A DNA stretch of 64,000 bases from Chrysomallon squamiferum (Eukaryota > Mollusca > Gastropoda > Neomphalida > Peltospiridae), in assembly GCA_012295275.1 (NCBI GenBank), contig CM022676.1, positions 10,899,470 through 10,963,469 on the forward strand, given 5' to 3'. The position numbers were made by a program, and so were the translations under genes. Positions 1,426 to 62,920 of the stretch are shown here, in pieces (the stretch's first letter is position 1; each line of letters begins with the position of its first letter). A model generated the notes under the pieces. It did not search any database. It was not told the origin of the DNA and saw nothing but the letters and a program-made list of their open reading frames with translations.

Positions 1426-1489
1426 TTAAAACTTCACACAGGAAGTTAGAATTTCAATGCCATGAAGTTCTCGCAGGCGATCCAGGTGT
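1426..1489 (-). CDS. TTC12: TTC12 coding exon 17 (stop codon)
   Basis: 64 nt, acceptor TTTTTCAG. It encodes [20 protein letters not shown] and the stop at 1426-1428, matching the LRKLHGLEIL end of human TTC12. The acceptor and the first ~11 exon bases are duplicated once, 64 nt upstream. Confidence 0.92.
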
Positions 1490-62100: not shown

Positions 62101-62920
62101 GAGATAATACAGCTTTACTGTGAGATACATTTTACTGTGAGATACAGCTTTACTGTGAGATACATTTTACGGTGAGATAAAGTTTTACTGTGAGATACAG
62201 CTTTACTGTGAGATACAGCTTTACTGTGAGATACAGTTTTACTGTGAGATACAGCTTTACGGTGAGATACAGCTTTACTGTGAGATACAGCTTTACTGTG
62301 AGATACAGTTTTACAGTGAGATACAGTTTTACTGTGAGATGCATTTTACTGTGAGATAGTTTTACTGAGATACATTTTACTGTGAGATAGTTTTACTGAG
62401 AGATACATTTTACTGTGAGATACATTTTACACACCAGTGTTCTATTCCAGTAATAACTTATTAGCCAAAAGTTTAATTTAGACCAGATCAAAATACACAC
62501 GCACACACACAATCACGCACGTGCACAGAAGTAGAGAGAGACACACACACAGTTAGACAGCTACATAAGAAAATAGACCGGTTTCTCTCTGTGAGTGTTA
62601 ATACTAAATACAAAAAATTAGACTGTCACCTTGTTGTTCTAAGAAAATAGACCGGTTTCTCTCTGTCAGTGTTAATACTAAATACAAAAAAATTAGACTG
62701 TCACCTTGCTGTTCTAAGAAAATAGACCGGTTTCTCTCTGTCAGTGTTAATACTAAATACAAAAAATTAGACTGTCACCTTGCTGTTCTAAGAAAATAGA
62801 CCGGTTTCTCTCTATGTCTTGCAGTGTTAGAGATTTCTTCCTGTCTGTCTCACTTCTGTCCTCTTTCAAAAACTTCTTCTTCGGACTGTCCAAGTTTTCT
62901 CTTCTCGACATCTGCATCTC
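37738..62920 (-). CDS. PHLDB: PHLDB (LL5 family), C-terminal coiled coil and PH domain; 5' part outside the window
   Basis: LL5/PHLDB proteins bind PIP3 through a C-terminal PH domain and organise cortical microtubule capture with CLASP at basal cell faces and postsynaptic sites (family knowledge). Five exons join in phase, reading right to left: 62779-62920, 61706-61892, 39398-39497, 38903-39049, 37738-38178 (1,017 nt, 338 aa of the C-terminal half). They encode a basic segment ([16 protein letters not shown]), a coiled coil ([20 protein letters not shown]), a Ser-rich spacer ([14 protein letters not shown]), a second coiled coil ([18 protein letters not shown]), and then [11 protein letters not shown] and the PH domain with [32 protein letters not shown] and [20 protein letters not shown], very close to vertebrate PHLDB2. 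The N-terminal FHA domain must lie beyond 64,000. One intron is 22.2 kb. Confidence 0.93.
38190..38415. repeat. TTAAATACTTATATTTAACTACA repeats
   Basis: About eight AT-rich copies of 26-30 bp directly upstream of the PHLDB terminal exon acceptor. Confidence 0.8.
38903..39049 (-). CDS. PHLDB: PHLDB exon d, coiled coil
   Basis: 147 nt, phase 0. It encodes [20 protein letters not shown] and [19 protein letters not shown]. Acceptor TTGTTCAG, donor GTACAG. Confidence 0.93.
39398..39497 (-). CDS. PHLDB: PHLDB exon c, coiled coil
   Basis: 100 nt encoding [20 protein letters not shown] and [13 protein letters not shown]. Acceptor TTTTCAG, donor GTGAGT. Confidence 0.92.
40105..40195. repeat. (ATA)n then (AATA)n microsatellite
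   Basis: About 18 ATA units followed by AATA units in the PHLDB intron. Confidence 0.9.
40972..41255. repeat. 30-bp minisatellite, ~9-10 copies
   Basis: The unit has CTTTTCCTAGTAACATTAAT followed by GATGTAGTAG. Copies differ mainly at one T/C (GTAGTCTTT against GTAGCCTTT). Confidence 0.93.
41310..42275. repeat. ~62-66 bp minisatellite, ~15 copies
   Basis: The unit has TATAAACCAGTGTTCAGATG, TACAAGTTGTAGTAGATC and TGTGTATAACAAAGTAGATC. A block of about 260 bp (41.45-41.58 and 41.71-41.84 kb parts) is repeated, showing higher-order structure. Open frames on both strands are artefacts. Confidence 0.92.
42276..45096. repeat. 2.8-kb minisatellite, ~50-57 bp units, ~54 copies
   Basis: The unit has ATAACTGCTACTGTAAAATA followed by ACAGTTTTTCTGTAAGAGAT. 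Subtypes are GATGTCTGC, GATATCTGTG and GATATATCTGTG; a TTCAACTG variant recurs in a regular order (about every 0.25-0.8 kb), indicating higher-order duplication. Confidence 0.94.
45395..45475. repeat. A-rich tract with ATA and AAAG units
   Basis: Long A runs broken by ATAATA and GAAAG, in the PHLDB intron. Confidence 0.8.
45597..45770. repeat. ~35-40 bp repeat, five copies
   Basis: TTTAGTTTATATGTATCTTA followed by ATGAAAACTAG, five copies with small indels. Confidence 0.85.
46165..46425. repeat. 40-42 bp repeat, six to seven copies
   Basis: The unit contains ACACACAGCTCAGTGATATT followed by CTTAGAGATACCTGCATT. Confidence 0.9.
46708..46853 (-). CDS. PHLDB: Possible alternative first coding exon of a short PHLDB isoform
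   Basis: An ATG at 46851-46853 opens 48 codons ([20 protein letters not shown], then [18 protein letters not shown]). It ends at GGCAG followed by the donor GTAAAC in phase 2, exactly the phase needed to join the exon at 39497. There is an in-frame stop just upstream of the ATG, so it would act as a first exon. The local composition is GC-richer than the flanks. I do not recognise the peptide; the product would be the last coiled coil plus the PH domain. Confidence 0.4.
47145..47325. repeat. ~52-bp repeat, four copies
   Basis: GCACTTCATTATGAACACAG followed by CTACAGTACACTGCAGTTCA; the four copies are almost identical. Confidence 0.92.
47478..47507. repeat. 10-bp-arm inverted repeat
   Basis: GTGAAGTATA and TATACTTCAC are separated by 10 nt, giving a small perfect hairpin in a region rich in near-palindromic AGTATACT words. 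Confidence 0.6.
47917..48034. repeat. Uninterrupted (AG)n, ~58 units
   Basis: About 117 nt of perfect GA/AG dinucleotide, a mirror-symmetric purine tract. Confidence 0.97.
48182..49600. repeat. ~37/40-bp minisatellite, ~37 copies
   Basis: The unit is AGTAATAAAAACACTTTCAC followed by TGTGTTCACACACCAGACA, with an optional ACA and an optional TGT (GTGTTC against GTTC). Open frames on both strands (up to 321 codons) follow from the unit composition. Confidence 0.93.
49755..50150. repeat. ~34-bp repeat, ~10 copies
   Basis: CACAAAATAAAACATGTAAC followed by ATACCCAGTCTCTGT, with CTCTCT/CTTTCT variants. Confidence 0.9.
50598..51108. repeat. 20-bp minisatellite, ~25 copies
   Basis: ACAGCTGTACTCTGACATAC with a TAC/TGC dimorphism. 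One unit (about 50929) lacks a G. Confidence 0.95.
51590..51820. repeat. Two small repeat sets
   Basis: Three copies of a 34-bp unit with GAGACTGTCTGAAACAGTGG, then two copies of a unit with CTAAACTAACAGTTTATCAC. Confidence 0.85.
53009..53195. repeat. (AAT/AAC)n followed by (GAA)n
   Basis: A mixed AAT, AAC and GAT trinucleotide tract, then about 18 GAA units at about 53137-53190. Confidence 0.95.
53841..54208. repeat. (CA)n-rich tract
   Basis: CA dinucleotides with AT, CT and ACAT interruptions over about 370 nt; no coding content. Confidence 0.9.
55340..55985. repeat. ~44-bp minisatellite, ~14 copies
   Basis: The unit has AATCAAAGCTTCTTAGGGTT followed by GTATACATTTCTTTTTACTG. The first copies are degenerate. 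Confidence 0.92.
56110..56208. repeat. 29-bp repeat, three copies
   Basis: AACAAATTATAATTCAGGAA followed by TACAGCATA; the middle copy reads AAAATATAAT. Confidence 0.85.
56990..57243. repeat. ~45-50 bp repeat, five copies
   Basis: AGTGTAACATGTCAGTAATT followed by CTCACACGAGTTACACAAGT. Later copies carry CTTGAG instead of CGAG. Confidence 0.9.
57978..58407. repeat. CA/GACA-rich tract ending in poly(A)
   Basis: ACACAGACAGACAC-type repeats to about 58335, then a run of about 38 A with flanking GA repeats. Confidence 0.9.
59405..60235. repeat. ~29-bp TG-rich minisatellite
   Basis: About 20 copies of GTGTGTACATATGTGTAGCT followed by GTATGTTT, grading into irregular TG/TATG repeats. The Thr/His-rich minus frame (310 codons) is an artefact. 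Confidence 0.92.
60338..60575. repeat. ~47-49 bp repeat, five copies
   Basis: GTCACAGCAAGTAAAACCAG followed by ACAACAGTGTCTACACAGAC and TGAGTCTT. Confidence 0.9.
61452..61660. repeat. 18-20 bp repeat, ~11 copies
   Basis: GTGTAATAGGTTAGATAT and variants, in the first part of the 22-kb PHLDB intron. Confidence 0.9.
61706..61892 (-). CDS. PHLDB: PHLDB exon b, coiled coil
   Basis: 187 nt, GC-rich, acceptor TTTCACAG, donor GTGAGT. It encodes [20 protein letters not shown] and [20 protein letters not shown]. Ends in phase 2, which fits the exon at 39398-39497 directly (joining as [12 protein letters not shown]). Confidence 0.92.
61908..62435. repeat. 18-bp repeat next to the PHLDB exon b acceptor
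   Basis: About 28 copies of GAGATACAGCTTTACTGT, starting about 16 nt from the exon. Confidence 0.92.
62573..62815. repeat. PHLDB exon a end plus donor, three decoys plus the real site
   Basis: Unit of about 77 bp. On the minus strand: AGAGAGAAACCGGTCTATTT, TCTTAGAACAGCAAG, the donor GTGACA and a short intron stub. The real site is at 62779; decoys are near 62713, 62635 and 62573. Confidence 0.92.
62779..62920 (-). CDS. PHLDB: PHLDB exon a (first in the window)
   Basis: 142 nt, acceptor CATTCAG, donor GTGACA, ends in phase 1. It encodes [17 protein letters not shown] and [15 protein letters not shown]. Its last ~35 nt and donor are repeated three more times downstream. Confidence 0.85.

Follow-up and report, generated by a model that had tools for sequence, protein, structure and literature searches.

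Exon-edge tandem arrays in three adjacent genes of the mollusc Chrysomallon squamiferum: probable mirage-type minisatellites

Tandem arrays built from exon ends together with their splice sites recur in the introns of three adjacent genes, TTC12, IFT57 and PHLDB, of the mollusc Chrysomallon squamiferum. We analyzed a window of 64,000 nucleotides (C12:10,899,470-10,963,469 of the 404.6-Mb assembly in 22 contigs) and found such arrays at ten exon-intron boundaries. With a probability of roughly 0.78, we interpret them as minisatellites of the mirage type known from lancelet genes, here in a mollusc. Their crossing of exon-intron junctions would be mostly a by-product of many local array births with roughly random placement, rather than the result of a dedicated route of intron growth.

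Exon-edge copies and decoy splice sites

A copy of an exon edge had to lie in the same intron as the true splice site, to carry the correct dinucleotide and to match the true site over 6 intron bases with no more than one mismatch. Its exon part was taken as the matching run into the exon with at most 12% mismatches, and a site was called positive when this run reached at least 8 exon bases. Applied to the 48 splice sites that TTC12 and IFT57 have in total, the rule gave 9 positive sites. The other 39 contained 273 look-alike sites, none of which matched more than 5 exon nucleotides (nt), and chance is therefore excluded for the positive sites. The donor of PHLDB exon a is the tenth positive boundary, and the ten comprise five donors and five acceptors. 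In the list below, "counted" refers to intron copies with at least 8 exon nt; the longest matches may overrun the true exon part by a few bases, since mismatches were allowed. Fractional copy numbers are from Tandem Repeats Finder (TRF).

1480..1608, minus strand: TTC12 exon 17 acceptor array; 64-bp unit, 2 copies, about 10 exon nt; 1 counted, longest 11
1772..3428, minus strand: TTC12 exon 16 donor array; 46-bp unit, 35.9 copies (TRF), about 36 exon nt; 6 counted, longest 44
4208..5378, minus strand: TTC12 exon 15 donor array; unit of about 104 bp, about 50 exon nt; 10 counted, longest 56
13228..14122, minus strand: TTC12 exon 11 donor array; 67-bp unit, about 27-30 exon nt; 11 counted, longest 35
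21828..22784, minus strand: TTC12 exon 4 donor array; 50-bp unit, about 9-11 exon nt; 12 counted, longest 11
25543..25837, plus strand: IFT57 exon 2 acceptor array; 92-101-bp unit, about 57 exon nt; 2 counted, longest 65
26233..26637, plus strand: IFT57 exon 3 acceptor array; 38-bp unit, about 9 exon nt; 9 counted, longest 10
26989..27345, plus strand: IFT57 exon 4 acceptor array; 88-bp unit, 4 copies, about 62 exon nt; 3 counted, longest 75
29728..30278, plus strand: IFT57 exon 7 acceptor array; 61-64-bp unit, 18 exon nt and a 16-nt filler; 8 counted, longest 21
62566..62813, minus strand: PHLDB exon a donor array; 74-bp unit, 3 boundary copies, about 35 exon nt; 2 extra copies with 35-42 exon nt

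Just 6 copies were counted among the 35.9 TRF units at TTC12 exon 16, because most units carry a different donor context. Over the ten arrays there are 74 extra copies, and the GT or AG is intact in 73 of them. PHLDB also has a weak copy of an acceptor (exon at 69353-69222, window numbering; 1 copy, 9 nt), which was left uncounted, the predicted acceptor being uncertain. The initial annotation had proposed that units straddle exon edges, with the extra copies sitting in the intron, at no fewer than 11 boundaries, and it named 12. The arrangement is borne out at ten of these, whereas two named regions fail the test:

11005..11395, minus strand: TTC12 exon 14 acceptor region, 3 exon nt
30533..30828, plus strand: array past the IFT57 exon 7 donor, 1 exon nt

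Two further observations concern the arrays themselves. TTC12 intron 14 holds a 5.2-kb array (5684-10873; 63-bp unit, 86 copies) that is purely intronic and contains TACAG/GAC look-alikes. The PHLDB copies at 62566-62813 read CACTGACAG, 33 nt, then GTGACA, and each is a possible 33-nt mini-exon with both splice sites.

By frame computation, 70 of the 71 decoys in TTC12 and IFT57 would, if used, introduce a premature stop. The sole open decoy is the first one at TTC12 exon 15, which adds 108 nt to that exon; the earlier statement that no copy except the one attached to the complete exon yields an in-frame model thus holds against every decoy but this one. The spacing between copies is mostly not a multiple of 3, as expected if extra copies are spliced out. 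Divergence from the true copy is similar overall in the exon-derived parts (0.079, a value raised by TTC12 exon 4 with 0.313) and in the intron-derived parts (0.062). Selection on the protein would then act on the exon-joined copy only, the other copies being near-neutral intron. All donor decoys lie downstream and all acceptor decoys upstream of the exon, which leaves the true site nearest to the exon's other end in every case. If exon definition pairs each exon end with the nearest opposite site, the true exon would be chosen, and the decoys would be tolerated because all of them lie outside it; we infer that exon definition suffices to pass over them.

The copies could instead be kept because they tune splicing, add exons or trigger message decay, an explanation to which the intact dinucleotides, the in-frame TTC12 exon 15 decoy and the succession of acceptor-like AG, exon sequence and GT in the PHLDB copies would lend themselves. 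However, nearly all decoys would truncate the protein, exon and intron parts have diverged to a similar extent, and lancelet mirages are reported not to disturb splicing (PMC3087553, PMC3902484), which together make such a function quite improbable.

The arrays were found within the following gene models:

1426..24386, minus strand: TTC12, 17 coding exons (exon 17 at 1426-1489, exon 1 at 24326-24386)
25083..32621, plus strand: IFT57, 9 coding exons
37740..64000, minus strand: 3' part of PHLDB, which runs on past the window into the adjoining stretch L008
about 37740-38178, minus strand: PH-domain exon of PHLDB (last exon)
62779-62920, minus strand: PHLDB exon a

The frames of TTC12 (720 amino acids) and IFT57 (410 amino acids) are open from ATG to stop, and all splice sites are canonical. 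Residues 22-403 of IFT57 match the solved IFT57 chain (PDB; E 1.6e-82), TPR repeats were found in the TTC12 product (E 4.7e-16), and the final PHLDB exon encodes a PH domain (E 2e-18); several PHLDB exons between 39.5 and 61.7 kb were not found in an exon search of the window. TTC12 and PHLDB are names that we take from the initial annotation, and no search result names either gene. TTC12 and IFT57 are arranged head to head, with about 0.7 kb between their start codons (24386-25083), a layout which suggests a shared promoter. Elsewhere in the assembly, PF14830 (haemocyanin beta-sandwich) has 27 matches, each above the cut-off, within 70 kb at C6:24882028-24951449, which constitute a predicted molluscan haemocyanin gene cluster, and five mir-2 copies above the cut-off lie inside 1.4 kb of C3. 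We take PF14830 to be a mollusc marker and the mir-2 cluster to be a protostome marker, and on these two clusters we rejected a lancelet as the source.

An assembly error, with repeats at exon edges collapsed or falsely expanded, would produce similar arrays. Gaps occur nearby, as runs of N in stretches L007 and L012, and a draft lancelet genome is reported to have contained one misassembled mirage (PMC3087553). The window itself, however, is free of N, the copies differ by substitutions and small length changes, and the gene frames are intact around every array, and we regard this explanation as very improbable.

Placement of the arrays along the genes

Arrays with a period of at least 15 make up 58% of the TTC12 span, 43% of the IFT57 span and 40% of the part of PHLDB studied. 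For the placement test, each array was collapsed to one unit and the units were placed randomly in the genes, wholly exonic units being excluded. At this period, 10 of the 72 arrays in the three gene spans lie at boundaries, compared with 5.72 expected (factor 1.7, P 0.051), and 62 lie away from them. We read placement as random within about a factor of two. The excess is not taken as proof of a junction preference because the window was picked for its striking pattern, a choice which bears on all placement P values. A variant that included the array at 72315-73078 (11 of 73 against 5.75 expected, P 0.023) was dropped, its exon limit having been guessed.

Several points weigh against this interpretation. 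With periods of at least 30, 10 of 46 arrays lie at boundaries against 4.60 expected (factor 2.2, P 0.011), and when only TTC12 and IFT57 are considered, 9 of 30 lie there, with 4.30 expected (P 0.019). Such an excess over random placement keeps a junction preference possible, and the whole analysis is based on the genomic sequence of one assembly from one individual. By gene, the boundary arrays amount to 5 of 21 in TTC12, 4 of 9 in IFT57 and 1 of 42 in PHLDB, the excess being confined to the first two. Coding sequence can carry arrays too, which favors the interpretation given above: a PHLDB coding exon in stretch L008 (70468-70771, window numbering) contains an in-frame array of a 33-nt unit with 9.2 copies, encoding a repeated DRLQRPDTSAG.

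The side on which the arrays lie is also uneven. Nine of the ten are found on the low-coordinate side of their exon (two-sided P 0.021, noticed post hoc), i.e., at the minus-strand donors of TTC12 and PHLDB and the plus-strand acceptors of IFT57, the exception being TTC12 exon 17. If this bias holds elsewhere it would point to the direction of replication, because it does not follow transcription. Both this bias, seen whatever the gene strand, and the excess at periods of at least 30 would fit a directional process in which the replication fork stalls where AT-rich intron gives way to GC-rich exon and the first-met edge is duplicated. On the other hand, the excess is small and falls to P 0.051 when shorter periods are included, the window was chosen for the pattern, and ten arrays from one region are a single sample; we therefore consider array birth directed to junctions unlikely.

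Sequence beyond the window was surveyed over 259 kb plus small loci. None of the 24 boundaries of 12 exons from amylase, ankyrin and EGFR-like genes on other contigs carries copies, which differs from 9 of 48 here (P 0.025) and, with PHLDB included, from 10 of 70 (P 0.06). These control exons were hand-chosen: 8 have database support (amylase 3, ankyrin 2, EGFR-like 3), and the other 4 are same-strand neighbors without a match of their own, that at L019 6693 being without a Pfam family. One control row, L025 4534-4591, was dropped (donor, 21 nt within a GT run). The exon caller reproduced 21 of 26 exons exactly, having been trained and tested on the same genes, and made 35 calls on reversed sequence compared with 48 at a score of at least 30; its unsupported calls were discounted on both grounds. 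Rows with at least 8 matched nt at L012 + 8380, L013 + 8409, L016 - 3395, L016 - 6514, L020 - 7058 and L025 - 2480, and those of L022 and L026, were dropped because we judged them to be open frames that lack gene support and are low-complexity, antisense or satellite in nature.

The array share (period at least 15) of twenty 10-kb stretches ranges from 0 to 0.98. It is 0.24-0.47 in the six stretches adjoining the window and 0-0.20 in 12 of the 14 elsewhere, the other two being satellite. The exon-edge pattern accompanies a repeat-rich neighborhood. The initial annotation had read it as a general way in which introns grow, through multiplication of splice sites, a suggestion that is not upheld by 10 arrays against 5.72 expected and by control boundaries devoid of copies. 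Stretches L022 and L026, which were chosen blind, consist of 98% and 92% tandem repeat.

The filler at IFT57 exon 7 and the birth of arrays

The unit of the IFT57 exon 7 array runs from the exon start to ...TATACACATG, continues with TAAGTCCTCACCTGAC and then with ACAAACTGAGCG... up to the acceptor. The middle piece TAAGTCCTCACCTGAC matches neither flank, because the exon goes on with GAGCAG and the intron to the left of the array reads AACAAACAAACTGAGCG. A counterpart lies 12.4 kb away in the neighboring gene:

16234..17288, minus strand: TTC12 intron 8 arrays; 57-bp unit, wholly intronic

A 25-mer containing the filler recurs on the same strand and without mismatch in both arrays, 8 times in that of IFT57 exon 7 and 5 times in that of TTC12 intron 8. 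Genome-wide (404.6 Mb), the 20-mer core of the filler has 20 matches at no more than one mismatch, all of them in these two arrays (TTC12 12, IFT57 8); the reversed control gave 0 matches. At the return point 8 nt are in common, ACAAACTG. The simplest reading suggests that the filler is a templated insertion made by template switching at microhomology, and it may have been copied from TTC12 to IFT57, a direction that we assume. An alternative is that the piece was lost from one of the flanks.

Most other filler candidates from an ungapped comparison did not survive inspection. At TTC12 exon 17, PHLDB exon a and IFT57 exon 4, the flanks show small length or base differences and no insertions, and the candidate at TTC12 exon 15 is a GT run; an overlap value of 131 at TTC12 exon 16 was discarded as an artefact of the long array. 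TTC12 exon 11 (about 10 nt) and IFT57 exon 3 (about 5 nt) may have short fillers whose source was not traced.

An exact 25-mer beside splice-like sequence in arrays of two different genes is also what mobile elements bearing splice sites might leave behind. Introner elements are repeated intron sequences that carry splice sites. In place of the many dispersed copies that characterize introners, the 20-mer, the sole unit piece searched genome-wide, is confined to two neighboring arrays. Moreover, a complex 15-mer common to two unrelated arrays was found in no other case within the window, and the exon-derived parts are gene-specific. Introner-like or other mobile elements are therefore disfavored and the least probable of the explanations considered.

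For mirage-type minisatellites we propose the following course of events. A replication or repair error would duplicate about 40-110 bp across a junction, a template switch would have taken place at least once during founding, and the array would then grow by slippage or unequal exchange. It is tempting to speculate that a replication fork halted at an exon edge copies part of a nearby array, returns at a microhomology such as ACAAACTG and leaves a unit that amplifies. If the first-met edge were preferred, boundary arrays would record the direction of replication. We put this scheme forward tentatively and regard it as doubtful in its full form.

Comparison with known systems

Mirage minisatellites have been described in the lancelet genes for Adh3, the globins BflGb6 and BflGb9, TnC and PGBD5 (PMC3087553, PMC3902484), TnC and PGBD5 being further cases (PMC3902484). 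Splicing is reported to be undisturbed, with the exon-joined copy found in the mRNA (PMC3087553, PMC3902484). The lancelet arrays and those described here have in common tandem repeats across exon-intron boundaries, at donors as well as acceptors (PMC3087553, PMC3902484); the lancelet units measure from tens of bp to about 160 bp, with AG or GT in many copies, and those of C. squamiferum 38-104 bp (TRF). The mollusc arrays are minisatellite-like, have units that span the boundary and affect both kinds of splice site, as is characteristic of mirages. They differ from the lancelet cases in their host, in their number, with ten boundaries in three adjacent genes, in being known from genomic sequence alone, and in that one unit, at IFT57 exon 7, contains a filler traceable to the array of a neighboring gene.

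A related process is the AGGT model of intron gain, in which a new intron in potato RdRp is reported to have arisen from a tandem duplication across an intron-exon boundary (PMC4974935). Both involve a boundary-crossing tandem duplication and splice signals derived from the parent boundary (PMC4974935), although in C. squamiferum existing introns lengthen and the duplications are multi-copy arrays. In the literature within our reach, most subscription papers lying outside it, we found no described case of mirages in a mollusc; cases in other animals are possible. One paper reportedly attributes Drosophila introns to sliding or tandem duplication, and another is said to deal with tandem repeats in human paralogues.

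Altogether, the exon-edge arrays of C. squamiferum are locally dense and belong to a kind known from lancelets that seems to be new among molluscs. The lancelet cases that we found were descriptions of single genes, and ten mollusc boundaries would show that mirages are not limited to lancelets. The arrays naturally pit several near-identical splice sites against a single true one and would allow exon definition to be tested cleanly. Most useful among the new findings is the founding junction at IFT57 exon 7: its template can be traced, and this opens the birth of exon-edge minisatellites to testing.

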